From contig NZ_JACHND010000001.1 of the NCBI RefSeq assembly GCF_014205275.1, forward strand, positions 4,712,001 through 4,776,000: a DNA stretch of 64,000 nucleotides, given 5' to 3'. Made by a program: the position numbers and the translations under genes. Below, in pieces: positions 4,977 through 20,727 of the stretch. Source of the stretch: Sphaerisporangium siamense (lineage in GTDB: Bacteria; Actinomycetota; Actinomycetes; Streptosporangiales; Streptosporangiaceae). Under the pieces are notes generated by a model. That model ran no database searches, was not told where the DNA came from, and worked only from the letters and a program-made list of their open reading frames with translations. The first letter of the stretch is position 1, and each line of letters opens with the position of its first letter.

Positions 4977-5240
4977 CCTAACGCACGGTCCGACGGGAGG
5001 GACGTTATGGTCTGGGCGAGTCGCTCCGCGTCACTGATCGAGCAGCATGCCGGTTCCGACATGGTTTAACGCGATAAAGCGGGAAACCGTCATGAGGTGA
5101 TCAGCTCTGGGTCGAGGTTGTATCCCACAATCGCCATGCTTGTCCTGTTTTTCCGGCTTGCGTGCAGCGCCGGTGATTAACAGGGGGTGTCGAGGGTAGC
5201 CGTTCAGCGAAGACAGTGATCGACATACGGTGGTGAAGCG

Positions 5241-5396
5241 ATGGCTGGCATAGTGGATCGCATCAAGGACTATCTGCGCAGCCCCAAGGGGCAGGAGCAT
5301 GTCCGGCGGGTGGAGACGATGGCCAAGGACCCGCAGAATCAGCGCAAGTTGCGCGAGTTGCTGGACCGGTGGCGCGGTCGCAGGACGCACCGCTGA
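5241..5396 (+). CDS. Small conserved actinobacterial-type protein (51 aa)
   Basis: A 51-codon frame runs from ATG 5241 to TGA 5394-5396. The product is highly charged and helical, opening MAGIVDRIKDYLRSPKGQ and ending in an Arg-rich tail (LLDRWRGRRTHR). The pattern DRIKDYLRSPKG...AKDPQNQRKLRELL is one I have seen in short proteins annotated as hypothetical across actinomycetes. A GGTGAAG sequence 4 bases upstream can serve as ribosome binding site. The predicted structure is one or two amphipathic helices with a basic end, which would suit nucleic acid or membrane-surface contact, but no function is established. Confidence 0.65.
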   Translation: MAGIVDRIKDYLRSPKGQEHVRRVETMAKDPQNQRKLRELLDRWRGRRTHR

Positions 5397-5569
5397 AAAC
5401 GCTGAAGCACCGCTGAAATCCCCCGGAAACCCTTGTTGGAACTGGAACCGGTGAGCGATCCGGGGCGCCCGTCGGGCCGGTGACGCTTGCGCCACACGCG
5501 GGCTCGGGGGCTGCGAGGCCCCCGAATCCGCCAGGCGCCGGGCGCCCCGTCCAGGAGACCGCCGCGGTC

Positions 5570-5602
5570 GGAAAGGCCGCCGTGGCCGTCGGCGGTCTTT
5601 CC
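5570..5602. terminator. Hairpin, possible terminator without T-tract
   Basis: The two 12-base arms, 5570-5581 (ggaaaggccgcc) and 5591-5602 (ggcggtctttcc), pair with a single G-T wobble around a 9-base loop. No run of T follows on either strand, so termination is only a possibility. It lies 174 bp beyond the 51-codon gene. Confidence 0.4.
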
Positions 5603-5630
5603 GCCCTGTGCCGGTCGCCGCGCACGTGCG

Positions 5631-5674
5631 CCGACGGGGCTGACTCATCGGGCCGACGGGGCTGACTCATCGGC
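5631..5674. repeat. 22-bp tandem duplication
   Basis: Two consecutive copies of a 22-base unit beginning ccgacggggctgactcatcg lie at 5631-5652 and 5653-5674, almost identical. It looks like a recent slippage duplication in noncoding DNA. Confidence 0.85.
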
Positions 5675-6416
5675 CTGGGGTGATGACGAACCGCCAAGTG
5701 ACCGTCCGCCGGGCGGCGGCCGAAGCGGTCTGCTGATAGCTCGGGGGCGGACGCCGGCTCGTGGCGGTCTCGTCCAGCCGGCCGGTGATCTGAGCGGCGC
5801 CCCGGCTCGTCGGTGCGCGGGTTCGGTCCTCCGCCATTCACCGTCCCACCTGCATGAATCCCTTACCGGCCTGATCTCCGTCGCGAGGTGCGGCCCGGAG
5901 CCCGCGGTCACCTGCCGGCCGTCCCGGGTCCCCTCTCCTCGCGCCGGCCCTGGCCGGCATCCTCCCTCGTGCCGGCCATCACGATCACCGCCGGCATCCT
6001 CGGCGCGTCGCAGGCCTCAACGTCGATCGACGCCGGTCGCGTCTGAGGCCCCGAAGCGTTCGTACCCGCACAGGCGAGACGGGTCTTCGCACTTCACCGG
6101 GCATCGAGCTCTCGGTGGAGCACTGCATGTTGACCAATTGATGTACATCCTCTTTACGCTCGCCGTCATGCTGACTATGATTCACGATTGGTGCACTTCG
6201 GGCCGTTCACATCTGTTCACTTTCACGTCAACGCTGCCGTGACATTTCGTTCGAGCGCCATACGGATTTGCAGCACGACCTGATCGATGGCCCCTTCGTC
6301 CCCTGATTCATCTGTTCTTTGTCAACGCCTAGGGCTGTTTGTGCCCCGTGGCGCTGTTCCTGTGCGTCCTAAGTTTTTCGCGAGCCAATGTTCTACTATT
6401 CGCAGAGGTAGTGAAT

Positions 6417-9400
6417 ATGGTCGTGGACCCGGCTGGGTTCGTGTTGAGCGGGGTGTCCCGTCCCACATCCGCGGGCAACGTGGTGGAGCTTGTCGTACGG
6501 GCGGTGGCCGAGCACCCCGCGGCCGTCGCCGTCCGTGATGGCGATCACGTGCTCACCTACGCGCAGCTGGCGGGTCGCGCGGCCGGGTTCGGGCGGATGT
6601 TGCGTGAAGAGCTCGGGATGGGCGGCATGCGAGTCGGCCTCGCCCTGCAGCGGGGCATCCCGCAGCAGATCGCCGTGCTGTCGGTGCTCGCGGCGGGAGC
6701 GTGCTACGTGCCTCTCGATCCGGCGCTGCCCGCCGGGCGACTCGAGATGATGATCGAGGACGCCGGACTCGGGCTGATCGTCGTCGACGAGGCCTACGCG
6801 GGGCCGGTCGGCGGCTGCCGGACCGTCGTCGTGCCCGCCGTGGACGCGGCCGGCCCCGAGCTGCTCGGCGCTTGGCCGGCCGATCCCGGGGACACGGCAT
6901 ATGTGCTGTTCACCTCCGGATCGACTGGACGCCCTAAGGGCGTGGCGATGCCGCATCACCCGCTGGTGAACCTCATCGAATGGCAACTGCGTGACTCCCC
7001 GGCCGGTCCCGGGGACCGCACGCTGCAGTTCGCGCCCATCGGCTTCGACGTCTCCTTCCAAGAGATCTTCTCCACCTGGGGCTCGGGAGGAGAGCTGGTC
7101 CTGATCGGCGAGGAGGATCGCCGCGATCCGGGCCGCGTTCTGGAGCTCGCGCACCGGTACGGGGTCTCGCGGCTCTTCCTGCCGTTCGCCGCCCTGCAGA
7201 GCATCGCGGAATGGGCCGTGGCGATGCCGGGCCCGCTGCCGGTGCTGCGGGAGATCATCACCGCCGGTGAACAACCGATCATCACTCCTGCCCTCGAGAG
7301 ATTCGTCGAGGCCACTGGCGATCCCACCCTGGCAAACCAGTACGGCCCCACCGAGACCCACGTGGTGACGCGGAGCCTGCTGCGTGGCCGGCCGCAGGAC
7401 TGGCCCAGGGTCCCGCCGCTCGGATCGGTCGTGGACAACTGTTCGGTGTACCTGCTCGACGATGCGATGAACCCGGTCCCGGCAGGCGCGGAAGGTGAGA
7501 TCTGCCTGGCGGGCTCGGCACTGGCTGACGGCTATGTCGTGGATGACGAGCGGACACGCGGCCGGTTCATCGAGGTGCGGGGGATCGGCCGGGTGTACCG
7601 CACGGGTGATTTCGGCGTTCTCGAGGCTGGAACGCTCCTTTATCGGGGCCGCCGCGATGACCAGGTGAAGGTCAGCGGCCATCGCGTCGAGATCGGCGAG
7701 GTCGAGGCGGCTCTGTCCGCGAACCGATCGGTTGGCCAGGTGGCCGTGGTCCCGGTCGGGCACGGAGCGACGGACCGGCATCTGGCGGCCTTCGTCGTGC
7801 CTCGCGCCGGATCGGTCCTGGTGGTCGAGGAGGTCAGGGCCGCCGCGGCACGGGTGCTCCCGCCCTACGCGGTGCCAAGGCGCTTCGAGGTGCTGGATTC
7901 GCTGCCGAGGACCAGGAGTGACAAGGTCGACCGCCGGGCGCTGGCGGAGTCCCTGGCGCCGGAGGGTGTCCAGGACGCCGCGGTGCCCGCGGATCTCCGG
8001 GATGCGGTCCGCCGCGTGTGGCAGCGGGTCCTGGGCGTCGTCTCGGTTCCCGACGACGCCCAGTACTTCGACCTCGGCGGCGATTCGCTGACCGCGGTCC
8101 GTCTGGTGGTGGAGCTGAACCGTTCCCTCGCCAGGCGGGTCTCGGTGGGAGATCTACTGATGCACCCCCGGTTCGCGGATTTCGTGGAGTTCGTCCAAGG
8201 TGGCGCCGGGCGGACGCGCTTCCAGCCGCAGGAGATCGCACCGGCCGCCTCCGACGGCACGTGGTTCGGCGTGGCCGCCACCCAGAGCCATCGGATGAAC
8301 CGTGAGGCCTGGCGGGCTCGCCATGACCTGCCGAGCATCAGCAACGTGCCCATGGCCTATCACCTGACCGGTCCGCTGGACACCGAGGCGCTGAGTCAGG
8401 CGCTCCAGTGGGCGGTGATCGCGCATCCGGCTCTCCGGCTGGAAGTCGATCCCGACGGTCGACGGCAGCGCCTCACAGCCTGGAGTCCCACCTTGCGCGT
8501 GGTGGCCGTCACCGCCGGCTTCGATGCGCAGACCGCCCGCGAACAGGCCCTGAGCATCATCCAGCGGGACGCCGAGACACCGTTCGCGCGCTGCGGGCCC
8601 GCCTACGACGGCCTTCTTCGTGCGACCCTGGTCAGGGTTTCGGAACGTGAGCACTACCTGTTCCTCAATGCCGACCACATCGTCTTCGACGGCTGGTCGA
8701 TCGGTGCCCTGAACGATGATCTGTCCCGGTGTTACGCGTCCCTCACCCGTGGCGAGACGCTCCCCGCGCCCGTTCCGGACGACCGTTTCCTGCGCTGGGC
8801 GCGGACCGAGCAGGCCTGGCTCGATGAAGAACTGGCCCATGCCCTCGAAGAGGACTGGCGCCGCTCGCCCTGGGCGGTCGCCGACCCGGCGGCGGTCCTG
8901 CTCTTCCCCGAACCAGCGCCCGGCCCCGCGGAGGACTTCGCGGCAGAAGAGCTGATTCGGCGACGCCTCGGCCCGGAGCCCACCCGCACGCTCCAGGCGG
9001 TGTCCAGGGCCATGGCACAGCCGATGGGCTCCGTCGTCACGGCGCTCTACGCCGAGGCCTTCGCCCGGTGGTCCGGCCGGAAGGAGGTCGCACTGGTCTC
9101 CACCTTCGCCAACCGGACGGTTCCCGACGCCGAGAGGTCCGTCGGCTTCTTCGCCAACAACATCCCGGTCTTCCTCGGCAACGTGCACGGCCTGCCGCTC
9201 CAGGAGCTGATCAGGAGGTCGGCCCAGGAGGTGGGCCGCGCGGCCCAGCGCGAGGCCGTGCCCCTGCCGTTCTGGTTCGGAACGCTCCTGCCCGGTCATC
9301 GGGACCTGGCAGGATACGCCCGATTCCTCTTCCTCAACGTCCGCGGTCAGGACCGCGAGGGATCGGGGGACCTTCGCCTGCCGGGTGTCACCTCGACGCC

Positions 9401-9596
9401 CGTGAAGATCGACATCAGGCTGACCCCATCCTTCGCCCTCGGATTACGGGTCGGCGACAACGGGGACTCGATCTCGCTCGAACTGGCCTTCCTCCCCGCC
9501 TTGGTCCCACGAGAGCGCGCGGAGCTCCTCATGCGGGAGATCGAAGGAGCGATCACCAGAGCGGCGTGCCTCCTTACCACTGGAGCCGCCCGATGA
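6417..9596 (+). CDS. Nonribosomal peptide synthetase, A-PCP-C, predicted proline-like specificity
   Basis: The product has 1059 residues from ATG 6417; AGAGG at 6404-6408 supports this start over GTG 6339. The adenylation domain (about 20-510) shows FTSGSTGRPKG, NQYGPTE, YRTGD and a final K in SDKVDRR. The carrier domain has FDLGGDSL with Ser about 557 as phosphopantetheine site. A condensation domain (about 620-1059) follows, with DHIVFDG (catalytic His about 754). Hand-aligned to GrsA, the ten-residue code reads D-V-Q-F-I-A-Q-V-V-K. This is close to known proline codes and differs mainly at the Q where His is usual. There is no thioesterase; a terminal C domain implies transfer to a soluble amine or another carrier. 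It is first of eight co-directional genes and overlaps the next by ATGA. Confidence 0.93.
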   Translation: MVVDPAGFVLSGVSRPTSAGNVVELVVRAVAEHPAAVAVRDGDHVLTYAQLAGRAAGFGRMLREELGMGGMRVGLALQRGIPQQIAVLSVLAAGACYVPLDPALPAGRLEMMIEDAGLGLIVVDEAYAGPVGGCRTVVVPAVDAAGPELLGAWPADPGDTAYVLFTSGSTGRPKGVAMPHHPLVNLIEWQLRDSPAGPGDRTLQFAPIGFDVSFQEIFSTWGSGGELVLIGEEDRRDPGRVLELAHRYGVSRLFLPFAALQSIAEWAVAMPGPLPVLREIITAGEQPIITPALERFVEATGDPTLANQYGPTETHVVTRSLLRGRPQDWPRVPPLGSVVDNCSVYLLDDAMNPVPAGAEGEICLAGSALADGYVVDDERTRGRFIEVRGIGRVYRTGDFGVLEAGTLLYRGRRDDQVKVSGHRVEIGEVEAALSANRSVGQVAVVPVGHGATDRHLAAFVVPRAGSVLVVEEVRAAAARVLPPYAVPRRFEVLDSLPRTRSDKVDRRALAESLAPEGVQDAAVPADLRDAVRRVWQRVLGVVSVPDDAQYFDLGGDSLTAVRLVVELNRSLARRVSVGDLLMHPRFADFVEFVQGGAGRTRFQPQEIAPAASDGTWFGVAATQSHRMNREAWRARHDLPSISNVPMAYHLTGPLDTEALSQALQWAVIAHPALRLEVDPDGRRQRLTAWSPTLRVVAVTAGFDAQTAREQALSIIQRDAETPFARCGPAYDGLLRATLVRVSEREHYLFLNADHIVFDGWSIGALNDDLSRCYASLTRGETLPAPVPDDRFLRWARTEQAWLDEELAHALEEDWRRSPWAVADPAAVLLFPEPAPGPAEDFAAEELIRRRLGPEPTRTLQAVSRAMAQPMGSVVTALYAEAFARWSGRKEVALVSTFANRTVPDAERSVGFFANNIPVFLGNVHGLPLQELIRRSAQEVGRAAQREAVPLPFWFGTLLPGHRDLAGYARFLFLNVRGQDREGSGDLRLPGVTSTPVKIDIRLTPSFALGLRVGDNGDSISLELAFLPALVPRERAELLMREIEGAITRAACLLTTGAAR

Positions 9597-10648
9597 AGCT
9601 CCTCACGTTCGACGATCTCGCCGGGCACGAGGACTGGCAGCGTCTGTGGGCCGCTGATCCGCTGCAGCACGCGAATTACACCGTCACCGGCCTGGCCGCG
9701 GGATCCAGGCATTACACGCGCCTGTACTACCTTCCCGCGGAACACGACGTCAGCCGGTATCGGGCCTCGGCTGAGGTCTTCCTGCCGCGGCACGCGCTGG
9801 TGATGGGCCCCGACGGGCCGGTGGCCGGGACGCCCGTCACCGTCGAGGTCCTGGACGGCCGTACCCGGCTGTCCGCCTACGGGCGCCCGCTCTACCTCGT
9901 CCAGGATCCGGCGGCGCCGCCCCGGGCACGCAAGCGCGCCGCCGAGCTGATCTATAGGCATCTCCAGGAGGTGGCCGCGGCCCACGACGCCGAGCGATGG
10001 CACCTGCGGGACCACCTCACGGACGGGGCGATCTCGCCGCTGACCGAGGTCGTCCTGAGGAACGGCGGCGTCAGCAGGCATCACCTCACCCAGATGGTCG
10101 ACCTGACCCTGCCCGAGGAGGAACGCCGGGCGGAGCTGAGGAAGAACTTCCAGCGGATCCTCCGCAAGCCGCCCGCCCGCCTGGACCTCGCGGTGGTGAC
10201 CGGCGCCGAGGTCACGCCGGACGATCTCGAGCAGTTCGCGCGGCTACAGCTGGCTTTCTACGGCAAGGGGATGCGATCGCAGGAGTCCTGGGACGCCATC
10301 CGCGCCTCCGTCCTCGCGGATGAGGCGTTCCTGGTGATCGGGCGAAGAGACGGCCGCGTGGTGACCATCGCCTACTTCGCGGTCTCGCCTGGGTACTGCC
10401 TGTACGTGTCGGGGGTGAACGAGAGGGGCGGCGCGGGCGACGGGCTCAGCCACCACGTGCTCTGGCGGGCGATGCGGCACGCGGAGCGGCTCGGCTGCCG
10501 GTACTTCGAGCTCGGCGAAGTGCTCCATCCGGGCGACCACCCGGACCTGGACGAGAAGTTCCTGAGCATCGGCCACTTCAAAGCCGGATTCAGCAACATG
10601 ACGGTGCTCCGTTTGGACGTCTTCTCCGCCCCGCTGGGTCGCGGGTGA
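9593..10648 (+). CDS. FemAB/GNAT-fold aminoacyl transferase-like protein
   Basis: The product has 351 residues from ATG 9593, overlapping the NRPS stop as ATGA. The C-terminal half has the FemAB/BioF2-like GNAT pattern. It includes RKNFQRILRK, a strand pair around VVTIAYFAVSPGYCLYVSGV, the helix LSHHVLWRAMRHAERLGCRYFELGE and a closing FLSIGHFKAGF, which matches the typical FKxGF end of this fold. Fem proteins transfer amino acids from aminoacyl-tRNA to peptidoglycan precursors. Relatives in antibiotic operons (the pacidamycin PacB type) add an aminoacyl-tRNA residue to a carrier-bound intermediate. Next to a one-module NRPS, a peptide-bond-forming role is the best inference. A simple N-acyltransferase using acyl-CoA is the alternative. 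Confidence 0.75.
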   Translation: MKLLTFDDLAGHEDWQRLWAADPLQHANYTVTGLAAGSRHYTRLYYLPAEHDVSRYRASAEVFLPRHALVMGPDGPVAGTPVTVEVLDGRTRLSAYGRPLYLVQDPAAPPRARKRAAELIYRHLQEVAAAHDAERWHLRDHLTDGAISPLTEVVLRNGGVSRHHLTQMVDLTLPEEERRAELRKNFQRILRKPPARLDLAVVTGAEVTPDDLEQFARLQLAFYGKGMRSQESWDAIRASVLADEAFLVIGRRDGRVVTIAYFAVSPGYCLYVSGVNERGGAGDGLSHHVLWRAMRHAERLGCRYFELGEVLHPGDHPDLDEKFLSIGHFKAGFSNMTVLRLDVFSAPLGRG

Positions 10649-11853
10649 GGAAGGGAGGGCCTGAGCGGCTTCTTTATGCCGTCGTCCTGGTCATCGCGCT
10701 GGGCACCGGGATGTTCACGGTGGGGAGCACGCTGTTCTTCGTGCAGGTCCTCGGGTTCAGCCCGGTCCGGATGGGTCTCGGACTGACCATCGCCGCCGTG
10801 CTGGGGCTGCTGGTCAGCGTGCCGCTGACCCGCCTGGTCAACGGCCGGTCTCTGCGGACGGCTTACCTGCAGCTCCTCCTGGTCCAGGCGGTGAGCTTGT
10901 TCCTGCTGCCGCAGACCCGCTCGTTCGGGCTGTTCATCGCGATCATGACGGTGAACGCGATCGGCGCCAAGACCGCACGGGCGGTGAACAACGCGTTGAT
11001 CGGCCACATGGCCGGCCCCCGCAGGCTCGAAGTGCGAGCGGTGGCCAGGTCGCTCAACAACTTCGGGACGGCCGCCGGTGCTCTGCTGTCGAGCGCCGCG
11101 GTCGCCGACGACGGCGACCGCGCCTACGAGCTGCTCATCCTGGCCAACGCCTGTACCTTGCTGCTGGCCGCGGCGCTGGTGCTCGGTCTCCGATCCATCG
11201 GCCGGATGTCGCGCTCCGCGACCCCCTCCGGCTCCGCGCTGCGGGACACCCGGTACCGCACGGTGACGCTCATCGACGCCGTCATGTGCCTGGAGTACTT
11301 CGTGATCACCCTGGTACTCCCACTGTGGGTCGTCGGGCACACGAACGCGCCGAAGGTCGTCATCCCGTTCCTGTTCGTCCTGAACATGATCATGGTGGCG
11401 CTGCTTCAGCTACCGATCTCGAGGAGAGTGCGGGACGTCGCCAAGGCCGCACGCTGCCTGCGGATCTCCGGAGTCGTGTTCTTCGGCAGTCTCGCCCTCC
11501 TGGCGGCCGCCGCGTCCGCGGGCCCGGTCCTCGCCGTCGGGCTGCTCTTCCTCGGCGTGGCCGTGCACACGGTCGGCGAGATCTTCCACGCCGCCGGCGC
11601 CTCCGAGCTGAGCTACGGCTTGGCCCCGCCCGACCGCCTCACCGAATACCAGGGCGTCTTCGGGCTGGGGATGGGAACCGCCGAAGTCCTCGCCCCCTAC
11701 GCCTTGGCAGTCGTCTGCCTCCAGGACGGCCGGCTCGGCTGGCTGGGCTGGCTCGGCCTCGGGCTCGTGCTCACCTGTGCCGGGTGGGTCTCACCACTGG
11801 TGCTCCGCACTCGATCGCTCCATCCCCCATTGCTGGTCAACGAGGAGAAGTGA
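10645..11853 (+). CDS. MFS-type transporter, probable product exporter
   Basis: This 402-residue membrane protein starts at GTG 10645, overlapping the previous stop as GTGA. About twelve hydrophobic segments can be traced, beginning LLYAVVLVIALGTGMF and ending LGWLGWLGLGLVLTCAGW. Polar loops between segments 2 and 3 (PLTRLVNGRSLRTAY) resemble the major facilitator signature position. Placement inside the biosynthetic operon suggests export of the product and self-protection; the substrate cannot be read from the sequence. Confidence 0.85.
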   Translation: MRKGGPERLLYAVVLVIALGTGMFTVGSTLFFVQVLGFSPVRMGLGLTIAAVLGLLVSVPLTRLVNGRSLRTAYLQLLLVQAVSLFLLPQTRSFGLFIAIMTVNAIGAKTARAVNNALIGHMAGPRRLEVRAVARSLNNFGTAAGALLSSAAVADDGDRAYELLILANACTLLLAAALVLGLRSIGRMSRSATPSGSALRDTRYRTVTLIDAVMCLEYFVITLVLPLWVVGHTNAPKVVIPFLFVLNMIMVALLQLPISRRVRDVAKAARCLRISGVVFFGSLALLAAAASAGPVLAVGLLFLGVAVHTVGEIFHAAGASELSYGLAPPDRLTEYQGVFGLGMGTAEVLAPYALAVVCLQDGRLGWLGWLGLGLVLTCAGWVSPLVLRTRSLHPPLLVNEEK

Positions 11854-11857
11854 TCTT

Positions 11858-13600
11858 TTGGGAACGCTCAAGACCGAAGGTTTCGCCAAGCTCGTCGAGA
11901 TGGTCGCACAGGAGGCCGCGGCCGAACGCCTTGTGCGCGACGCGGCCATGCACGCCGCGACCCTCGGCGAACGACTTGCCGTAGAGGTGGCCCTGGGCGC
12001 GCTCAGCAGGCATGAGGCTTTCGTGCTCCACGCCGCGGAGAAGGCCGGCGCCCAGATGGGCCCCGTGGGTCCGGGAGAAAGCCTGGCACTGACCTCCACC
12101 GGCCGCCTGCGGATCCTCCGTGCCGGTGAACCTGAGGAGGAGGGCGTCCTGACGATCGGGCGTATCGAATGGGGCGCCGCCCGGCCCGCCTCGCTCGACC
12201 AAGAGTGCGATGAGGCGCTGCGGCGGGACGCCGACGAGATCGGCGCCGTCGCCGACTGGCTGCGATCCCGTCCCGCGGGCGAGGCGCAGCGGATGGTCGC
12301 CGGCCTTCAGACGCTGCTCAGCCACGTCGGCCCCATGCGGGTCTACATCGGACCGCACTGCTACACCAACTTGGGAAGGGCGAGCAACCTGGTGGGCAAG
12401 TCACTGGCGGTCGGCTCCGACAGGTGCCGGCTGAGTCGGCTGGCCGACGTGCCGGTCGCTCAGTGGCCGCCCGAGGACGCGTGCTTCGTCGTCCTGATGA
12501 CCGCGCTGATCGGTTCAGGGACGCCGTCGCGTACTGAGGAGATGAGCGGGACCCAGCTGATGCCGGGACGTCTTGAGGCGTTCATCCGCGACCGGATCGC
12601 GGCCTATGACGGGTCGGTGCCGCGGGAGACGGATGAACTGGCGCTCGTGGATCGGCTGTTCGCGCTGTCCGCGCAGGCCAGGGAGCTCCGCCCCGGCAAG
12701 CTTCGCGGATGGCCGCCGTTCTACCGCACGGTGCAGTCGATGACCATCCACAAGCAGGAGCACTTGTTCACCGTGCCCGTCACCGCCGTGGACCTGCCCG
12801 GAGCCTTCGTGGAGAAGCTCATGTGGCTGCTTCCCGGCACCGACGTCGCCGGGACGAGCGACTGGGAGAGCGCCTGGACCGCCCACGCCGTGCGAGCCCA
12901 CGAGAACGCCCGTGACGCCGCCTTCACCACTCATTTCGAGCAGGTGGTCCATGATCTGGTGGAGGCCGGTACGGAGGCGACGGTCTCACATGTCGGGATG
13001 TCGCGGGGGCCCCGCGACATGGCCGAGTTATCGCGGCAGATCGCGGCGGGCAGCACCGTGCCGGGGCACTGGAAGACGAGCGACTACTACTGCTGCGTGG
13101 TCCCGAGCCGGGACTTCGGCCGGCGGTTCGCCGACAACGGCGTGCCCGAGGAGCTGACGCAGGTGGTGCGAGCCATCGCGGCCCGCATGCGCTGGAACGG
13201 CTGGCATTTCATGCCGCACGCCAGCGGCGTCGGCGACGACCCGAGCTTCGCCGACCGAGACTGGTTCTACGCGCCGACCATGCCGGACGTCACCGAATGG
13301 ACGTCGCACCACCATCAGGGCCATGTGGCGAACGGGGTACGCCACGCGATCCGCGTCCCGTTCCCGCTGACTCTCGCGGGCGCGTCTCGGCCCGGCATCC
13401 ACGACTTCAGGCTGATGCGCACGGACGGTGATCCGTATACGCTCCAAGATTTCCGCGCGGCCGTTGCGATCGGTCAGGTACTCCGCGGCCTGTACCAGTC
13501 CTACGCCTCACAGGTCGACGCGGGCGGGCGTGCTCTAGTGATCAGCGATTTCGACAACCGGTGGTATCAGAGGCGGTTCACCGCCGCCGCTTTGGTCTGA
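11858..13600 (+). CDS. Unrecognised 580-residue protein of the NRPS operon
   Basis: The start is TTG 11858: GAGGAGAAG at 11842-11850 is correctly spaced and the frame follows the MFS stop by four bases. I recognise no family. The first 130 residues are helical (VEMVAQEAAAERLVRDAAMH, then SRHEAFVLHAAEKAG). The remainder is mixed alpha/beta. The most distinctive part is near the C-terminus: YYCCVVPSRDF, then RWNGWHFMPHASG, DRDWFYAPTMPD and SHHHQGHVANGVRHAIRVPFP. The cluster of His, Asp and aromatic residues could bind a metal or form an active site. Its central place in the operon implies a dedicated step of the pathway. No signal peptide or membrane segment is visible. Confidence 0.85.
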   Translation: MGTLKTEGFAKLVEMVAQEAAAERLVRDAAMHAATLGERLAVEVALGALSRHEAFVLHAAEKAGAQMGPVGPGESLALTSTGRLRILRAGEPEEEGVLTIGRIEWGAARPASLDQECDEALRRDADEIGAVADWLRSRPAGEAQRMVAGLQTLLSHVGPMRVYIGPHCYTNLGRASNLVGKSLAVGSDRCRLSRLADVPVAQWPPEDACFVVLMTALIGSGTPSRTEEMSGTQLMPGRLEAFIRDRIAAYDGSVPRETDELALVDRLFALSAQARELRPGKLRGWPPFYRTVQSMTIHKQEHLFTVPVTAVDLPGAFVEKLMWLLPGTDVAGTSDWESAWTAHAVRAHENARDAAFTTHFEQVVHDLVEAGTEATVSHVGMSRGPRDMAELSRQIAAGSTVPGHWKTSDYYCCVVPSRDFGRRFADNGVPEELTQVVRAIAARMRWNGWHFMPHASGVGDDPSFADRDWFYAPTMPDVTEWTSHHHQGHVANGVRHAIRVPFPLTLAGASRPGIHDFRLMRTDGDPYTLQDFRAAVAIGQVLRGLYQSYASQVDAGGRALVISDFDNRWYQRRFTAAALV

Positions 13601-13619
13601 CAGGAAAGGTTCCACCAGC

Positions 13620-14795
13620 ATGACCAGTACCCGGCCGGCAGTCCTCTTCATGGGGCTGCGCCGTCCAAGCCTCGAGTGGAAAGCCGAGATCGAGGCAGCG
13701 CTAGGCCGCGACCACGACGTCTTCGTGCACTCGGACGCCTCCCTTGACCGGATCGGCCTCCCGGAGGAGCAGATCGCGAAGTTCTTCATGGCCGACTCCG
13801 TCGATGCGATCGCCGCGCAGAGCGTCGAGCGGATGCGCGCCGCCGGCCGCGTCCCGTCCTCGGTCGTCTGCTGGGGCGACCGCTACATCCGCGTCACCGC
13901 CCTGATCGCCGAGACCCTGGGGCTGAGGGGCGTGGGCCCGCAGGCCGCGCTCGTCTGCGGGGACAAGGCCGCACAGCGCCACGTTCTGGATCCCCATGGC
14001 CTCAACCCCCCCTGGCGGCGTGGGACCACGGTCGAGGAACTGCGGGCGGCGATCGACGAACTCGGCATGCCGCTGATCTTCAAGCCGGCCCACTCCTCGG
14101 GCGGCAAAGGCACCGCTCTGATCGACGAGGGCACCGACATGGACGCGCTGCTCGCCGCCACCACGTCCAACTACGTCGAGTCCAGCGCTTTCGTCGTCGA
14201 ACGTTACGTCGAGGGCAGCGAGCACTCCGTCACCGGTCTCGTCCGCGATGGGCAGGTGGTGACCCTGGCGGTCGCCGACAAGTTCCTGGACGAGGCGGGC
14301 CTGAGCACGGTGGCCACGCTGGTCCCGTCGGCGCTCGCCCCCTGGGAGGCGGAGCGGTTGCACGAGGCGGCCAGGACGGCTGTGCGGGCGGTGGGCATCC
14401 GGGACGGCGGCTTCCACGTGGACCTCCGCCTCGGACCGGACGGCCCGGTCGTCCTGGAGGTCGGCGCCCGCCTGGGCGGAGACCTGATCAACTCCCATCT
14501 CGTCCCGCTGGCGACCGATGGCCGCGTTCAGCCGTACCGGGAACTGCTCGGCGTGCTGAACGGAGAACCTCTGCCGGAACCCGCCCCGGCGACGGCCAAA
14601 GCGGCGATGGTCATCGTCCCGGTGCCCGACGGAGGGGTGGAGCGCTCGCTGGAACGCGTGGCCGGGCACCCACTCGTCACCATGGCCACGGATTGGACGA
14701 ATCCCGGGAAGCCCGCGATCGCCGTTGTCACCATGCTGGACGACCATGAGGTACCGGTCGTGGCCAAGAGCCTGCGCGCCTGGATCGAAGCGTAG
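13620..14795 (+). CDS. ATP-grasp carboxylate-amine ligase
   Basis: The product has 391 residues from ATG 13620, with GGAAAGG upstream. It shows the ATP-grasp layout: an N-terminal preATP-grasp half with VCWGDRYIRVTALIAE, the nucleotide-binding loop HSSGGKGTALI, then VERYVEGSEHSV, and the metal-binding end VLEVGARLGGDLINSHLVPL. That last segment resembles L-amino acid ligases such as BacD and DdaF types. These enzymes activate a carboxylate as acyl phosphate and join it to an amine. Within the operon it probably forms an amide, peptide or gamma-glutamyl bond in the product or a protected precursor. The next gene starts directly after the stop, so the two are likely coupled. Confidence 0.88.
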   Translation: MTSTRPAVLFMGLRRPSLEWKAEIEAALGRDHDVFVHSDASLDRIGLPEEQIAKFFMADSVDAIAAQSVERMRAAGRVPSSVVCWGDRYIRVTALIAETLGLRGVGPQAALVCGDKAAQRHVLDPHGLNPPWRRGTTVEELRAAIDELGMPLIFKPAHSSGGKGTALIDEGTDMDALLAATTSNYVESSAFVVERYVEGSEHSVTGLVRDGQVVTLAVADKFLDEAGLSTVATLVPSALAPWEAERLHEAARTAVRAVGIRDGGFHVDLRLGPDGPVVLEVGARLGGDLINSHLVPLATDGRVQPYRELLGVLNGEPLPEPAPATAKAAMVIVPVPDGGVERSLERVAGHPLVTMATDWTNPGKPAIAVVTMLDDHEVPVVAKSLRAWIEA

Positions 14796-15551
14796 ATGGG
14801 CCGGCCGATCGTCGGGGTGCTGGCCTGCCGCAAACGACGCCCCAACGGGACCAGTTACTCACGGGTCAACGACGTGGTGACCGCCGGCCTGCTCGAGCAC
14901 GCCGGGGTACTCCCCGTGCTCATCCCCGCGGTCGGTGCGGAGGTCATCGGCGGGGTGGTCGCCGGCCTGGACGGACTGGTGCTGCCCGGGAGCGGGTCCT
15001 ATGTCCATCCTGCGTTGTACGGTCGCCCGGACGCCGAGGTCCCCGGCCGTGAATACGACCTCGGCCGGGACGAGGTCGCCATGGCGCTTCTGCGCGCCGC
15101 ACACGAGGTCCCCGGTCTCCCGGTCCTCGGCAGCTGCCGGGGCATGCAGGAGCTCGCCGTTCATGCGGGATGCGTCCTGGAGGACCTGGCCGGCGAGTCG
15201 GCGGGCGTACACAGGCACGTACCCGCGGAGGGCGGCGACCGGTGGGCCGAGGCGCACCTCGTCGAGTTCCGTCCCGGCGGGTTGTTCCAAGACGGGTGCA
15301 CCGCCCAGGTGAACTCGCAGCACTCCCAGGCGGTCGCCGCCGCGACCGGGAAGGTGCGGGTCGAGGCCGTGGCACAGGACGGTGTGATCGAGGCGCTGAG
15401 CATCGACTGGCCGGAACGCTTCGTCGTGGGAATCCAGTGGCATTTCGAGCAGCACACGGCGGACGGCCCGCTCAACCAGAGAATCCTGCAATCGTTCGGT
15501 CGCGCATGCGAGCGGCACCAGGAAGGACGACGACATGCTGAACCTGACTGA
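14796..15551 (+). CDS. Gamma-glutamyl-gamma-aminobutyrate hydrolase-like (class I amidotransferase / peptidase C26)
   Basis: The product is 251 residues, beginning at ATG 14796 directly after the ATP-grasp stop. The class-I amidotransferase fold is evident: LDGLVLPGSGSYVHP, nucleophile elbow GSCRGMQE with Cys about 114, substrate-side NSQHSQAV, and the His/Glu pair in GIQWHFEQ. The PuuD family cleaves gamma-glutamyl amides. The pairing of an ATP-grasp ligase with a PuuD-like hydrolase recalls add-then-remove gamma-glutamyl protection logic, as in putrescine utilisation. It may instead remove an acyl group from the final product. No synthase partner is visible, so glutaminase function is less likely. 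Confidence 0.85.
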   Translation: MGRPIVGVLACRKRRPNGTSYSRVNDVVTAGLLEHAGVLPVLIPAVGAEVIGGVVAGLDGLVLPGSGSYVHPALYGRPDAEVPGREYDLGRDEVAMALLRAAHEVPGLPVLGSCRGMQELAVHAGCVLEDLAGESAGVHRHVPAEGGDRWAEAHLVEFRPGGLFQDGCTAQVNSQHSQAVAAATGKVRVEAVAQDGVIEALSIDWPERFVVGIQWHFEQHTADGPLNQRILQSFGRACERHQEGRRHAEPD

Positions 15552-16359
15552 ACCGTCCATCGCGGCAGCGGTCGAGGCGGCATCGGTGGCGGTGGAAGCC
15601 GGGGCGGACGACCTGCTCTTCGTGGCCGGCTCGGTCGTGGACGGGCTGGCCAACGACAACTCCGACCTCGACCTCTATTTCCTCGGCCGGGACGGTGACG
15701 CCGTGATCGGCGCGGAGACGACCGTCCGGAAGGGAGAGAAGAGCGGGACGATCGGGGTGATCGGCGGCCGGGAGGTCAGCGTCTCGATCATCGAGCCGGC
15801 CGGGCTGTCCCGCTTACGTGCCGACTTCGGCGACTGCCTGGGCGCGCTCGGCCAAGGCGACGGCATCGTGCAGCTGGAGAGCCAGAACGACCTCAAGTTG
15901 TTGCACCGTGTGCGCACCGGCGTTCCAGTCCGGGGAGAGACGCGATTGCACTCCCTGCGTCAGGAGCTGGGCACGGACCGGCTGGCGGAGTACCTGGTCA
16001 ACGTGCACGGAGTCGCGGCGGTGAACCGGCTCGTCGACGTCGAAGGCGAACTCGCCGAAGGCGGCGAGGACTCGGCGTCGTGGATGCTCCGCGAGGCGAG
16101 TTCGCATCTCGCACGGTTCGCGCTGGCACTCGAAGGGCAGACCAACCCGGCCCCCAAGTGGCTGGTCAAGCTGCTCGGGCGGGCGCGACTCGCCCCTGCT
16201 GACCGTGCCCTCCTCCTCCGCGGCCTGCTGGAGCCGGGGCGGGAGACCAAAACGCTGCTCGACACGGTCAAGATCCGGTTGAGGGAGATGGTCCTCACGG
16301 CGCCCGATGAACTGGTCGGCCCCTATCTGCGCCGTCAAGCCGAGCGGAAACTGCCCTGA
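15535..16359 (+). CDS. Nucleotidyltransferase-fold protein (MNT/ANT type)
   Basis: The product has 274 residues from ATG 15535, overlapping the previous gene by 17 bases, with GGAAGGACG upstream. The pol-beta-like nucleotidyltransferase signature is clear near the N-terminus: AGSVVDGLANDNSDLDLYF (GS at 32-33, SDLD at 43-46). A third carboxylate may lie in the REVSVSIIEP strand. The rest is a helical bundle. Such enzymes transfer NMP to hydroxyls of small molecules, including aminoglycosides and lincosamides, or to proteins. In this operon it could build a nucleotidylated product, or inactivate it inside the producer. The sequence alone does not decide between these. Confidence 0.85.
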   Translation: MLNLTEPSIAAAVEAASVAVEAGADDLLFVAGSVVDGLANDNSDLDLYFLGRDGDAVIGAETTVRKGEKSGTIGVIGGREVSVSIIEPAGLSRLRADFGDCLGALGQGDGIVQLESQNDLKLLHRVRTGVPVRGETRLHSLRQELGTDRLAEYLVNVHGVAAVNRLVDVEGELAEGGEDSASWMLREASSHLARFALALEGQTNPAPKWLVKLLGRARLAPADRALLLRGLLEPGRETKTLLDTVKIRLREMVLTAPDELVGPYLRRQAERKLP

Positions 16360-16360
16360 G

Positions 16361-17893
16361 ATGGCCCAGGGATTCGAGCTCCGCGACCTGCCCGACCGGC
16401 TGCTGCCCCGAGAACCACGGCTGGGCGGCGCCTGCGCGCCCGTGCCGGCCGACCGGATCGACGCGCTGCACAGTTCGGGCGCCGTCCTTCTCGGCCGGCT
16501 TCCCGACGACCCGCAGGTGGTCGCGTTCCTCGCCTCGGTCGTCTCCGAGGTCAGGGCCCTGTTCGGTGTTCCGGACGGCCATGCCCTCCACGTGGTCGCC
16601 GTCCGGCCCGAGCACATGAGCAGGCTGGCCGGGTGGGCCGAGACGCAAGCCGGTGGCTGGTCGACGGCGGACCTCTCCCGCTCCGCGGCGCTGCTCACCG
16701 GACCTGTCGTCCAGAACCTGGACCTCGCCCTCGTTCACATGGACGCCCTGCTGGGCATCGGCAGCGGTCTGAGCGTCGTGATCGTCTCGCCGCGGCTCGC
16801 AGCCGCGGTTCCCGCGCTGGTACCCGCCCTGGCCGAGGCGTCCGCATCGGTGGCGGTCACCGACTGGGTGATGCTGGCGAAGGGGGTGCGGCGCACCGCC
16901 GAGACCGATCTCGCGCGGGCGGAGGAGGATCGGGCCGCCAGGTTCGGGACGGTGGCCGCATGGGCACGGGGCAAGGCCTGGCTCCGGCCGCCGGCCTCCC
17001 GGGACGCCGGTGCGCTGACGGTCCATCTCGTCACCACGCTGCCACCCGGCACCGTCTCCCGAATCGCGGGCTTCCTCGAAGCGTCGCACCTCGCCTACGG
17101 GCTGATCGATCCGGCCGCGCCGGGCTCGTTCCACATCGGGCTGCATCCGGTCGTCCCGCTCTCCGACCTGGAGCGGCTCCTCGACCTGTTGGACCTGCTG
17201 GTCACCCGCGGCGCGGCGAGCGAGGACGAGCCTCAGCAGGCACCCGCCTCGGACGCCCTGATGATCCTCAAACCGGACATCCTGAGCGGACCGTTCGCGA
17301 CCTGCTCCCGGCCGACCGCAAGGGACGTCATCCGCGGGCTGATCGAGGTCTACACCGGCCGGCCCCCGAGCCCCTATGAGACCGGCACCTCCGCCGCGGC
17401 CGTCGGCTGGGGGATCCGCAACATCGCCCGTAAGGTCGCCGCCAGGTCCTGGTACACGAAGGACCTGCGGGATCCGGAGGGCTGTCTAGAGGGGTTGCTC
17501 GCCCATCTCGCGGGCGCGGAGCTCGCAGGCGAGGGGGCCGTCGCGACGGCGGCTCTCGTCCACGATGTCGTGCGGGTACTCGGATTCAAGGTCATGGTCC
17601 GGAGCAGGCGACCGCTCACCTACCGCGATTTCCTGGGGCTGTACGCCCACAACACGCACTACACCCGGCTCGCCGGTGACCTGCGCGGATACCTTCTCGG
17701 CCGAGAGGCGGAGATCACCATGCTCGAGGCCGACCAGGAGCTGAGCAGCCTGCACCTGTTCAAGGAGATCTTGAGACGGGTAATCCGCTACCCGACCACC
17801 CACTACGACGCGCTCGAGAACCTGATACACATCTCCGACCCCGGCGCCGACGACTGGATCTACTTCGAACGGACATTGACGCAGGAGGCCTGA
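16361..17893 (+). CDS. Two-part protein: possible degenerate class-V aminotransferase-like N-terminus and NDP-kinase-like C-terminus
   Basis: The start is ATG 16361, one base after the previous stop; 510 residues. The C-terminal part (about 298-510) resembles nucleoside diphosphate kinase. It opens DALMILKPDILSG and ends with NLIHISDPGADDW, where His about 490 matches the phospho-His motif NxxHGSD. It is about 70 residues longer than a normal NDK because of an insertion after the first helix. The N-terminal 270 residues weakly recall SerC-like class-V aminotransferases (VSEVRALFGVPDGHALHVVA, then LGIGSGLSVVIVS). The PLP lysine expected before LGIGSG is absent, so that part would be inactive. 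The first assignment is moderately firm, the second tentative. It is last gene of the operon. Confidence 0.65.
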   Translation: MAQGFELRDLPDRLLPREPRLGGACAPVPADRIDALHSSGAVLLGRLPDDPQVVAFLASVVSEVRALFGVPDGHALHVVAVRPEHMSRLAGWAETQAGGWSTADLSRSAALLTGPVVQNLDLALVHMDALLGIGSGLSVVIVSPRLAAAVPALVPALAEASASVAVTDWVMLAKGVRRTAETDLARAEEDRAARFGTVAAWARGKAWLRPPASRDAGALTVHLVTTLPPGTVSRIAGFLEASHLAYGLIDPAAPGSFHIGLHPVVPLSDLERLLDLLDLLVTRGAASEDEPQQAPASDALMILKPDILSGPFATCSRPTARDVIRGLIEVYTGRPPSPYETGTSAAAVGWGIRNIARKVAARSWYTKDLRDPEGCLEGLLAHLAGAELAGEGAVATAALVHDVVRVLGFKVMVRSRRPLTYRDFLGLYAHNTHYTRLAGDLRGYLLGREAEITMLEADQELSSLHLFKEILRRVIRYPTTHYDALENLIHISDPGADDWIYFERTLTQEA

Positions 17894-18052
17894 TCGCGTG
17901 GTGATGGTCGCCGGCCGGCGGCGCGGATGGTCGCGGAGGAGGGTGATTCGGGTGTATTTCGAGGCGCTTCCTGGGTGTCGCAGGGTCGGTCGGACCTGGC
18001 AGGCTGGCTAGTGGACCGACGCGTTCTCCTCGCGACACCCCGGAGGTCGACC

Positions 18053-19210
18053 TTGCAGGGACCGCTCAGCGACATCGTGGTCCTGGACCTGTCCCGGGCG
18101 CTCGCCGGGCCGCACGGCGCGCAGATGATGGGCGATCTGGGCGCGACGGTCATCAAAGTGGAGCATCCCGACGGCGGAGACGAGTCGCGGGGCTGGGGTC
18201 CGCCCTTCGTGGGCCCGTCGGGTGACGTCTCGACGTACTTCCTGGCGGCCAACCGCAACAAGAGGTCCGTCACCCTGGACCTGAAGTCCGAGGAGGGCGC
18301 CGCCCTGCTGACCCGCCTGGTGCGGCAGAGCGACGTGCTCGTCGAGAACTTCCGCACCGGCGTGCTCGACCGGCTCGGCTTCCCGGTGGAGCGCCTGCAC
18401 GAGCTGAACCCGCGCCTGGTGATCCTGTCCATCACGGGCTTCGGCCACGACGGCCCCGAGGGCGGCAGGCCGGGGTACGACCAGATCGCCCAGGGCGAGG
18501 GCGGCCTGATGAGCCTCACCGGCCCGTCGCCCGCCGAGCCGTATCGCGTCGGCGCCTCGATCGCCGACCTGCTCGCCGGCATCCACGGCGCGTACGGGGT
18601 GGTGGCCGCTCTGTACGAGCGGGAGCGCACCGGCAGGGGGAAGGTCGTGCGCACGTCCCTGCTGGCCTCGGTGGTCGGCGTGCACTCCTACCACGGGACG
18701 GCCTGGACGGTCGCCGGCAAGGTCCCGGCGGCGGCCGGCAACCACCACGCCTCGATCGCGCCCTATGGGGCGTTCCGCTGCGCGGACGGCATGATCCAGA
18801 TAGCCGTCGCCAACGACGTCCAGTGGCGCAGGCTGGCCCCGGTGCTCGGCATCGACCCCGCCGACCCCCGCTACGAGGACAACCGGCGGCGGTTCGCCAA
18901 CCGCGACGCGCTGATCGCCGACATCGAGCGCGCGCTCGCCCGCCACGACCGGGCGCACTGGCTGGCCGTGCTGGCCGGGCTCGGCATCCCGGCCGGCGCC
19001 ATCCGCTCGCTGGACGAGGTCTACGCCTGGGCGCAGACCCGCTCGCAGGGCCTGGTGGTCACCGTGGACCATCCCGACCTCGGGACGATCGAGCTGCCCG
19101 GGTCGCCGCTGAGGTTCGACGACGCCCCGCCCGCCGAGCACACGCCCCCGCCACGGCTGGGGCAGGACAACCAGGCCGTGCTGTCTTGGCTGGCAGAGCG
19201 CGAAGGGTGA
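18053..19210 (+). CDS. CaiB/BaiF-type (class III) CoA transferase
   Basis: The product is 385 residues from TTG 18053, chosen because GGAGG at 18042-18046 is well spaced and family members begin right at this point (LQGPLSDIVVLDLSRALAGP). Family marks are ATVIKVEHP, FLAANRNKRSVTLDLK, VLVENFRTG and the stretch VGASIADLLAG carrying the likely catalytic Asp. These enzymes move CoA between carboxylic acids through an Asp-CoA anhydride. The gene overlaps the following carboxyltransferase by GTGA, implying joint use of an acyl-CoA. It lies 159 bp beyond the NRPS operon and may be separate from it. The substrate is unknown. Confidence 0.9.
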   Translation: MQGPLSDIVVLDLSRALAGPHGAQMMGDLGATVIKVEHPDGGDESRGWGPPFVGPSGDVSTYFLAANRNKRSVTLDLKSEEGAALLTRLVRQSDVLVENFRTGVLDRLGFPVERLHELNPRLVILSITGFGHDGPEGGRPGYDQIAQGEGGLMSLTGPSPAEPYRVGASIADLLAGIHGAYGVVAALYERERTGRGKVVRTSLLASVVGVHSYHGTAWTVAGKVPAAAGNHHASIAPYGAFRCADGMIQIAVANDVQWRRLAPVLGIDPADPRYEDNRRRFANRDALIADIERALARHDRAHWLAVLAGLGIPAGAIRSLDEVYAWAQTRSQGLVVTVDHPDLGTIELPGSPLRFDDAPPAEHTPPPRLGQDNQAVLSWLAEREG

Positions 19211-20727
19211 CCACGCCCGACGGGGCCGCACCCAAGAGGCCCGACGCCCGCACGCTCATCGACACCGTCCTCGACCCCGGCTCGTGGAAGTCCTGGGACG
19301 AGCCACCGCGGGACCCGGTGTCGCCCGGGTCCTCCTACGCCGACGAGCTGGCCGCGGCGCGCGCCAGGTCCGGCTACGACGAGTCGGTCGTCACCGGGGA
19401 GGGCCTGCTGGAGGGCCGCCGGGTTGCGGTGATGGCCTGCGAGTTCTCCTTCCTGGCCGGGTCCATCGGCGTGGTGGCGGCCGAACGGCTGGTGAGAGCC
19501 GTGGAGCGCGCGACGGCCGAGCGCCTGCCGCTGCTGGCCGCGCCCGCCTCGGGCGGCACCCGCATGCAGGAGGGCGCGCTCGCCTTCGTCCAGATGATCA
19601 AGATCGGCGCGGCCGTGGCGGGCCACCGGGCCGCGGGCCTGCCGTACATCGTGTACCTGCGCCATCCGACGACCGGCGGGGTGTTCGCCTCGTGGGGGTC
19701 GCTCGGCCACGTCACCGCCGCCGAGCCCGGCGCGCTGATCGGCTTCCTCGGCCCCCGGGTCTTCGAGTCCCTGTACGGCTACCCGTTCCCTGAGGGGGTG
19801 CAGGTCTCGGAGAACCTGTTCCGGCACGGCCTGGTCGACGCGGTGGTGTCGGCGGAGCACGCCCGCGCGATCGCGGCGCGCGCCCTGGCCGTGCTGTGCG
19901 CGCCGACGCGCGGGCTGGAGCGCGGCCCCGAGCCGGTGGAGCGGCCGGTGGAGGTCGAGGCGTGGGAGGCGATCAGCCGGTCGCGCCGCGACGACCGGCC
20001 GAGCGTCAGGGCGCTGCTCAAGCTCGGCGCCTCGGACGTCACGCCGCTGAACGGCACGGGCGTGGGCGAGAACGACCCGGGGCTGTTGCTGGCGCTGGCC
20101 CGGTTCGGCGCGGCGCCCGCCGTCGTGCTCGGCCAGGACCGGCGGCGGCAGCGGACCGGCCGCCAGCTCGGCCCCGCGGGGCTGCGGGTGGCGCGGCGCG
20201 GCATGCACCTGGCCGCCGAGCTGGGCCTGCCGCTGGTCACCGTGATCGACACGGCGGGCGCCGAGCTGTCCAAGGCGTCGGAGGAGGGCGGGCTGGCGGC
20301 CGAGATCGCCCGGTGCCTGGCCGACCTGGTGGCGCTGGACGCGCCGACGGTGTGCCTGCTGCTCGGCGAGGGGGCGGGCGGCGCGGCCCTGGCGCTGCTG
20401 CCCGCGGACCGGGTGCTGTGCGCGCAGCACGGCTGGCTGTCGCCGCTGCCGCCCGAGGGCGCCTCGGCGATCCTGTACCGGACGATCGACTTCGCCCCGG
20501 AGATCGCCAAGGCGCAGGGGGTGCGGGCCGCGGATCTCCAGCGGGACGGCATCGTTGACCGAATAATTCCGGAATTCCCGGACGCCGCCTACGAGCCGCG
20601 CCCGTTCTGCGAACGGGTGGCCAGAACACTCGAATACGAGATCATCGGCCTGCTCGACCGCCCCGCCGGCGACCGCCTGTCCGCCCGCCTCGCCCGCTAC
20701 CGAGGACTCGGCCTGCGCCCGGACTGA
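19207..20727 (+). CDS. Acyl-CoA carboxylase carboxyltransferase, fused beta-alpha (AccD-AccA type)
   Basis: The product has 506 residues from GTG 19207, overlapping the CoA-transferase stop. The first half is AccD-like, with APASGGTRMQEG and the oxyanion region HPTTGGVFASWGSLGH. The second half is AccA-like, with VTVIDTAGAELSKASEEGG and LLGEGAGGAALALLPADR. The N-terminal Cys4 zinc finger of bacterial AccD is not visible. This fused form is common in actinomycetes and moves CO2 from carboxybiotin to acetyl-, propionyl- or another acyl-CoA. Biotin carboxylase and carrier genes are not in the window. With the CaiB-type gene it may form a small acyl-CoA metabolism unit. Confidence 0.9.
   Translation: MTTPDGAAPKRPDARTLIDTVLDPGSWKSWDEPPRDPVSPGSSYADELAAARARSGYDESVVTGEGLLEGRRVAVMACEFSFLAGSIGVVAAERLVRAVERATAERLPLLAAPASGGTRMQEGALAFVQMIKIGAAVAGHRAAGLPYIVYLRHPTTGGVFASWGSLGHVTAAEPGALIGFLGPRVFESLYGYPFPEGVQVSENLFRHGLVDAVVSAEHARAIAARALAVLCAPTRGLERGPEPVERPVEVEAWEAISRSRRDDRPSVRALLKLGASDVTPLNGTGVGENDPGLLLALARFGAAPAVVLGQDRRRQRTGRQLGPAGLRVARRGMHLAAELGLPLVTVIDTAGAELSKASEEGGLAAEIARCLADLVALDAPTVCLLLGEGAGGAALALLPADRVLCAQHGWLSPLPPEGASAILYRTIDFAPEIAKAQGVRAADLQRDGIVDRIIPEFPDAAYEPRPFCERVARTLEYEIIGLLDRPAGDRLSARLARYRGLGLRPD

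Follow-up and report, generated by a model that had tools for sequence, protein, structure and literature searches.

Our analysis of a 64,000-nucleotide stretch of the Sphaerisporangium siamense genome (contig NZ_JACHND010000001.1, positions 4,712,001-4,776,000, forward strand; hereafter the window, numbered from its first nucleotide) revealed an eight-gene operon, g1-g8, at positions 6417-17893. With a probability of roughly 0.7, it is a horizontally spread operon whose product is a small, peptide-like natural compound containing a nitrogen-nitrogen (N-N) bond, built on the predicted hydrazine chemistry of g4. By sequence, g4 is a member of the KinJ/FzmP/NegJ family of hydrazine-forming heme enzymes and is closest to fzmP-type genes. 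The genes are as follows:

g1, 6417..9596, + strand: nonribosomal peptide synthetase (NRPS) with adenylation, peptidyl carrier protein and condensation domains (A-PCP-C), 1059 residues
g2, 9593..10648, + strand: FemAB-like/Acetyltransf_6 transferase, 351 residues
g3, 10645..11853, + strand: major facilitator superfamily (MFS) transporter, 402 residues
g4, 11858..13600, + strand: homologue of the KinJ/FzmP/NegJ-family heme hydrazine-forming enzymes, 580 residues, TTG start
g5, 13620..14795, + strand: ATP-grasp ligase, 391 residues
g6, 14796..15551, + strand: PuuD-like hydrolase of the class-I glutamine amidotransferase fold, 251 residues
g7, 15535..16359, + strand: Pol-beta-type nucleotidyltransferase (NTase), 274 residues
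g8, N-terminal part, 16361..17230, + strand: SerC-like domain without the pyridoxal 5'-phosphate (PLP) lysine
g8, C-terminal part, 17231..17893, + strand: possible nucleoside diphosphate kinase (NDK)-like domain, motif-level, with a long insertion (whole g8 frame, 16361-17893)

All eight open reading frames (ORFs) run rightward without internal stops, and the gaps from g1 to g8 are -4, -4, +4, +19, 0, -17 and +1 bases, in agreement with a preliminary description of this DNA as eight linked rightward genes with overlaps or short gaps; its proposal of an undescribed operon that uses nucleotide-type enzymes and leads to a small product of aminoacyl or peptide-like nature is supported as well. In Pfam and NCBIfam scans, the well-supported domain assignments were A-PCP-C for g1, MFS for g3, ATP-grasp for g5 and Peptidase C26/PuuD for g6. 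The GC content of the operon is 0.697 vs 0.730 for window positions 17927-60000, which is compatible with horizontal acquisition. No tRNA genes were found at positions 1-24000, and promoter and terminator scans gave chance-level results.

The g4 gene, which starts with TTG at 11858 behind a GAGGAG-type site and had been left as a 580-residue unknown in the preliminary description, could not be matched credibly to any entry of Pfam, NCBIfam, PHROGs or PADLOC, nor by sequence to the Protein Data Bank (PDB). A search of plasmid records with its protein gave eight matches at 27-31% identity, five of which span 80% or more of g4, and tblastn linked it to genes of fosfazinomycin (fzm)/kinamycin (kin)-type hydrazine cassettes and of one Burkholderia cluster (E-values 7e-47 to 4e-27). 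Three Streptomyces plasmid loci carry the g4 homologue with a 2[4Fe-4S]-type ferredoxin, glutamine synthetase, PurB-like lyase and a GNAT gene; on the Burkholderia plasmid, ferredoxin, GNAT and C45 peptidase genes lie nearby. The set of ferredoxin, heme enzyme, glutamine synthetase, PurB and GNAT is that of the fosfazinomycin/kinamycin hydrazine cassette (PMC6133997). According to a 2025 preprint (PMC12154649), KinJ/FzmP, formerly a "hypothetical protein", is a heme enzyme that, with ferredoxin, converts nitrite and L-Asp to L-hydrazinosuccinate, and its homologue NegJ converts glycine to hydrazinoacetate.

The KinJ residues examined (K356, C468, R497, M498, N501, H504, the heme ligand H541, R551 and R570; PMC12154649, where the numbering of two arginines differs by one between passages) were transferred by a constant offset of +8 onto the kin-cassette protein of a Streptomyces plasmid (locus L009), not from the KinJ sequence, as KinJ, FzmP and NegJ were represented by cassette context. 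This offset fits nine of nine residues, the next best three of nine. All nine are kept in g4 (K299, C412, R443, M444, N447, H450, H489, R499 and R518), His489 being the equivalent of the heme ligand. Among 22 aligned homologues, eight of the nine residues occur in 22/22, and C468 in 21/22.

Genes g4-g8 are adjacent and in the same order in all six relatives whose contigs cover the region (L001-L005 and L104; L105 is the same contig as L004, and L006, a contig of 4.6 kb, carries parts of g4, g5 and g6). One of them, Streptomyces sp. WM6386 (L001), has all eight genes in the same order, with 53-63% identity for g1-g7 and 46-69% for g8 in pieces, while none of 99 ORF fragments from the window flanks matched the L001 flanks at E 1e-4; the shared arrangement is therefore not due to chance. 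The expectation that the eight genes travel together thus holds for g4-g8 (6/6) and fails for g1-g3, homologues of which were found upstream of g4 in L001 only (1/6). In the other five relatives they gave no match at E 1e-3, the one exception being 59 residues of an AMP-binding gene in L003 that is unrelated; for L104 the search was extended 20 kb further upstream (L122). In place of g1-g3, these five have in common an MFS gene that does not resemble g3 and a pair of ATP-grasp genes, the longer (~830-950 residues) comprising two ATP-grasp units and the shorter having ~420 residues, at 71-82% identity among them; beyond these genes, the content of L003, L004 and L005 diverges. The third ATP-grasp copy and the extra MFS gene of the relatives have no window counterpart beyond g5 itself. 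Broken frames in the assemblies, in g8 of L001 and L002 and in the second ATP-grasp of L002, were left as they are. On these comparisons, we are dealing with one core capped in two ways.

The five-gene core is rare among the class genomes examined. Used as a marker, the C-terminal part of g8 was found in all five genomes of L001-L005, in one of 394 class genomes (that of the window itself; two further matches were weak and partial, E 3.5e-4 and 3.8e-4) and in one of 392 genomes of the L003 genus (L003 itself; one weak match, E 3.2e-4). A g7 profile matched three of the 394 class genomes, the window's own and two others at 2e-14 and 9e-5.

Homologues of g4 itself occur in 33/394 Streptomycetaceae genomes and in 20/345 genomes of the window's order; of 11 genomes compared from its genus, the one that contains the window is alone in having g4. 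The homologues fall into three identity tiers: 52-63% (core relatives), 35-39% (six genomes with fzm-type genes) and ~30% (kin-type genes). Neighbourhoods of 14 g4-homologue loci were compared. The six loci of the 35-39% tier (L106-L111) contain glutamine synthetase, amidase, acetyltransferase and PurB genes without an adjoining ferredoxin, as in the window, and the gene order of L106 and L107 equals fzmL to fzmR; a ferredoxin adjoins the gene in all five kin-type genome loci of the ~30% tier (L112-L116). A tree of 22 sequences, from which L117 was omitted owing to a stop inside its KinJ-like frame, contains distinct core (seven rows, 100/99), fzm-type (99/99) and kin-type (100/99) clades, and g4 groups with the six fzm-type genes, core and fzm-type being joined at 100/99. 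With this affinity and nine of nine KinJ residues kept, the most probable product is a molecule of peptide-like character that contains an N-N bond.

Several g4-homologue loci have further content. L108, L110 and L111 are fzm-type cassettes with an additional PuuD-like gene, and L108 also holds methyltransferase-domain, APH-type phosphotransferase and Acetyltransf_6 genes. L117 (genome G353, of the window's family; 3948-9812) has a ferredoxin, the interrupted KinJ-like frame and three ATP-grasp genes, one of them 52% identical to the last ATP-grasp of L003, and may be another hydrazine-peptide cluster. In L009 (Streptomyces sp. AMCC400023, 90-kb plasmid) the kin-type cassette lies beside an ebo cluster (EboA, EboE, SCO3242-type prenyltransferase). 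In L010 (Burkholderia stagnalis plasmid, 3356-17700) a KinJ homologue occurs with AMP-binding, GNAT, C45 peptidase and FdxA genes, with three radical SAM genes upstream and diiron and beta-ketoacyl synthase genes downstream.

Sequence and fold comparisons identify g8, which is one ORF in the window and two in L001, L003, L004 and L005, as a fusion in which a degenerate phosphoserine aminotransferase (SerC) makes up the initial ~290 residues. The best Foldseek matches of this part are two Mycobacterium SerC entries (E 1.7e-9 and 3.3e-9, with low TM-scores, ~0.25 of query); a profile match to 2fyf reached E 6e-4, and profile-profile comparison gave E 4.6e-6 to four SerC genes of the same genomes vs 0.91 for the reversed control. 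The position of the SerC Schiff-base lysine, which we take to be the PLP lysine, is occupied by A, A, W, P or G in 5/5 aligned g8-type sequences. The C-terminal ~220 residues contain KPD near the start and ENLxHxSDP near the end, that is, NDK motifs in the right order with a long insertion, and K14, N197 and H200 of this part, the putative counterparts of the catalytic Lys, Asn and His of NDK, are conserved in 4/4 sequences. Its hhalign comparison with NDK gave E 0.016 (0.023 for g6 as an unrelated control), no PDB sequence match was found, and the g8 model (mean pLDDT 62, pTM 0.39) falls below pLDDT 50 here. SerC comparison sequences came from four of five loci and NDK sequences from three of six; the alignments omit g8 of L002 and the C-terminal part of L001 g8. 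An NDK-like domain is therefore possible at the level of motifs, short of statistical significance. NDK identity of the whole protein, as the preliminary description had it, was set aside, a degenerate SerC forming the first part, and the name holds, as a motif resemblance only, for the last ~220 residues.

In g7 the GS...DxD motif is intact and invariant in 6/6 sequences (row L002 of the alignment, out of frame in its last ~70 residues, was retained in the g7 model and profile). Pfam support for a nucleotidyltransferase is weak (E 0.0088); the best fold match is the NTase 3c18, with a probability of 1.00 but E 0.019, no fold match reaching E 0.001, and the structure model is weak (mean pLDDT 66, pTM 0.65). 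Relatives of g7 elsewhere (Nonomuraea L023, Parageobacillus L024 and G049/L121) have no recognised hydrazine genes around them, so the g7 superfamily is not specific to the pathway. A defence or toxin-antitoxin role for g7 was set aside, as the PADLOC scan was empty and the match to the antitoxin MntA had just E 0.09. The L024 relative (Parageobacillus caldoxylosilyticus conjugative plasmid, 7142-11576; 21% identity) belongs to an odd small biosynthetic set with PqqD-family, HAD hydrolase, myo-inositol-1-phosphate synthase and methionine adenosyltransferase genes.

It is rather unlikely that g7 and g8 modify the product for self-protection, by adenylylation or phosphorylation in the manner of aminoglycoside-inactivating nucleotidyltransferases, with g6 as the activating hydrolase. 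Resistance enzymes are commonly located in producer clusters, and LinB, a lincosamide nucleotidyltransferase, is among the solved folds nearest to g7 (rank 16, E 1.4). However, in all six covered relatives g7 and both parts of g8 are strict members of the core, whereas exporter and capping genes vary, and a degenerate SerC is not known to act as a resistance protein.

The solved structures nearest g5 are the L-amino acid ligases BL00235 and BacD. Among its plasmid relatives, the best are ATP-grasps whose clusters also hold lysine aminomutase, SidA-type hydroxylase, methionyl-tRNA synthetase (MetRS)-like and cupin genes, which we take to be the known hydrazinoacetate set. A review backs the hydrazinoacetate assignment of these genes (PMC11705231), and ligases of the g5 kind thus recur with hydrazino acids. 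Two such clusters, in which lysine 2,3-aminomutase is accompanied by SidA, MetRS-like, cupin and ATP-grasp genes, on plasmid pDK3 of Rhodococcus sp. DK17 (L026) and on a Burkholderia arboris plasmid (L025), are candidate beta-lysyl-hydrazinoacetate (negamycin-like) pathways using the other N-N enzyme system. The g6 protein matches PuuD (E 4.3e-35) and, weakly, gamma-glutamyl-CDP-amidate hydrolase (7e-7); its C114, H216 and E218 are conserved in 6/6 sequences.

Of the upstream genes, g1 has the A-domain code DVQFIAQVVK, proline-like as noted in the preliminary description and matching nine of ten letters of a proline code, DHxxxDG in the C domain (second His kept) and GGDSL in the PCP. Its orthologue in L001 has 63% identity, and it is absent near the core in the five other relatives. 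Support for g2 is weak but consistent (PF13480, E 7.8e-5; FemAB TIGR04421, E 6.3e-15, far below the curated cut-off), its L001 orthologue having 62% identity, and g3 is 32-33% identical to MFS genes beside the fzm-type cassettes L106, L107 and L109.

Taken together as a pathway, g4, with heme and a ferredoxin encoded elsewhere, would reduce nitrite and couple it with an amino acid to yield a hydrazino acid; the likeliest partner is L-Asp, which is the substrate of FzmP, the nearest characterised relative of g4. Judging from their families and from the glutamyl-carrier logic of fzm/kin, g5 would use its ATP-grasp site to create an amide or a hydrazide bond, the partner plausibly being a glutamyl group that serves as carrier or protection, and a gamma-glutamyl-type group could later be taken off by g6; g7 and the two-part g8 may perform nucleotidyl or phosphoryl transfer on the hydrazine intermediate. 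In the window and L001, g1 would cap the core with a proline-like residue, g2 would add an aminoacyl or acyl group and g3 would export the product; in the other relatives, two extra ATP-grasp genes would replace the NRPS/FemAB pair.

Several points weigh against this pathway. First, the 64-kb window yielded neither a ferredoxin nor the nitrite source CreD/CreE at E 1e-6. Outside it, the genome has two 7Fe-ferredoxin-like genes (best E 3.6e-17 and 3.5e-16), which are candidates for the electron donor, and a CreE-like flavoprotein gene (36% over 678 positions; L034, 8133-10124), with no CreD homologue in the surrounding 18 kb; CreD was sought there and in the window, not genome-wide. Most KinJ clusters are described as lacking CreDE (PMC12154649). 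Second, the fzm/kin glutamine synthetase, amidase, acetyltransferase and PurB-like lyase were not found in the window by their L009 versions at the same threshold, the same queries detecting these genes in L106-L116; as these hydrazine-handling enzymes were not found in the window, the later steps would differ. Third, midpoint rooting was applied to the tree and the program flagged long branches meeting, so that the position of the root, though not the grouping, is unsure. Finally, the roles proposed for g5-g8 derive from families alone, and heme binding and activity of g4 are predicted.

That the core makes a P-N-N unit, an aminoacyl phosphohydrazide or a nucleotide-activated hydrazine, is an unlikely elaboration drawn from the Campylobacter CDP-amidate route, hydrazine replacing ammonia: g5 would link hydrazine to glutamate, g8 and g7 would phosphorylate or nucleotidylate the distal nitrogen, and g6 would cut the glutamate off. 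What makes this conceivable is that an NTase, a possible phosphotransfer domain and a gamma-glutamyl-type hydrolase adjoin a predicted hydrazine-forming enzyme. The Pfam scan found no phosphoenolpyruvate (PEP) mutase among the eight proteins, and the phosphorus would therefore come from a nucleotide, not a phosphonate. Natural phosphorus hydrazides numbered three in the count of a 2019 review: FR-900137 and fosfazinomycins A and B (PMC6429109).

It is improbable that g4 has kept the KinJ fold and heme while its function has changed, e.g., to that of a nitrite- or NO-handling sensor or reductase, with a product devoid of an N-N bond. Such a change would fit the nitrite-forming genes and ferredoxin not being found beside g4; however, all nine KinJ residues are kept, g4 is locked to an ATP-grasp gene, which is present in many KinJ-family clusters, and the FzmP and NegJ groups too are often without a cluster ferredoxin (PMC12154649). 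Very improbable is an aminoacyl nucleotide or phosphoramidate of the phosmidosine or microcin C type, the class suggested in the preliminary description, without an N-N bond and with g7 adenylylating an aminoacyl amide: the proline-like A domain, the intact NTase motif and the possible phosphotransfer domain of g8 would suit it, but it leaves g4, a member of a hydrazine-making family with its active-site residues kept, unexplained, no ThiF/MccB-like domain was found in the eight proteins at E 1, and g1 lies outside the conserved core; homology of g4 to hydrazine-forming heme enzymes moves the chemistry to N-N bonds. Phosphoramidon/talopeptin was also set aside, the literature search having given nothing useful.

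A CaiB (CoA-transferase family III) gene (17927-19210) begins 33 bases past g8 and is followed by a carboxyltransferase gene (together 17927-20727). Both were set aside as cluster members, CaiB being without a match in L001; a CaiB relative (38%) also occurs in the hydrazinoacetate-type cluster L025. Further on, four tandem minus-strand genes (24962-38416) encode proteins of 1058-1067 residues, each with a subtilase (Peptidase S8) domain.

KinJ-family enzymes represent newly described O2-independent N-N bond formation, and the products of most of their clusters are unknown according to the authors (PMC12154649). No description of the g4-g8 core was found in the literature searched, which was without subscription papers such as the NegJ paper. 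The terms 'nucleotidyltransferase' and 'diphosphate kinase' do not occur in PMC12154649, and these loci could well be present, without a name, among the 869 homologues in its authors' network. The subfamily, closest to FzmP, has a fixed downstream set of ATP-grasp, PuuD-like, nucleotidyltransferase, degenerate SerC and possible NDK-like domains with no further step in common with the established fosfazinomycin/kinamycin pathway, and two capping modules that can stand in for each other. As a defined five-gene set it can be expressed and tested, and may yield a new class of hydrazine-derived antibiotics; g8 appears to be a case of the aminotransferase fold reused without the cofactor lysine.

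Among known systems, SerC resembles the N-terminal part of g8 in fold and sequence, that part being shorter and having the Schiff-base lysine replaced in all five sequences, and g7 shares with Pol-beta nucleotidyltransferases the GS...DxD motif as well as its best fold match. Microcin C is defined by an MccB-type (ThiF) adenylyltransferase making an aminoacyl phosphoramidate, to which the eight proteins, searched as above, gave no match. The Campylobacter phosphoramidate (CDP-amidate) route comprises a kinase, a nucleotidyltransferase and a gamma-glutamyl hydrolase, a logic that the operon may share; however, g6 is far nearer to PuuD than to the Campylobacter-type hydrolase, and the Pfam scan of the eight proteins brought up no glutamine kinase domain of the PEP-synthase type. 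Reference titles in PMC11924219 match this analogy. The hydrazinoacetate-type clusters L026 and L025 have ATP-grasp genes 31-34% identical to g5 and an expected N-N product, but there the bond would be made by lysine hydroxylase and MetRS-like/cupin enzymes, not by a heme enzyme. The negamycin pathway (NegJ) likewise combines a KinJ-family enzyme and an ATP-grasp without a cluster ferredoxin (PMC12154649); unlike it, the window gave no match to the L026 lysine 2,3-aminomutase query, and the main text of that preprint names no NTase or SerC-like gene for neg. A negamycin-type N-methyltransferase and lysine hydroxylase had no Pfam match in the eight proteins, no dedicated window search being made. 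Finally, where the fosfazinomycin and kinamycin cassettes have CreDE, glutamine synthetase, amidase, N-acetyltransferase and PurB-like lyase, the window has ATP-grasp, PuuD-like, NTase and SerC/NDK-like genes; common to both are an enzyme with a possible role on a glutamyl carrier, a g3-kind MFS gene beside three of the fzm-type loci and the homologous N-N bond-forming heme enzyme.

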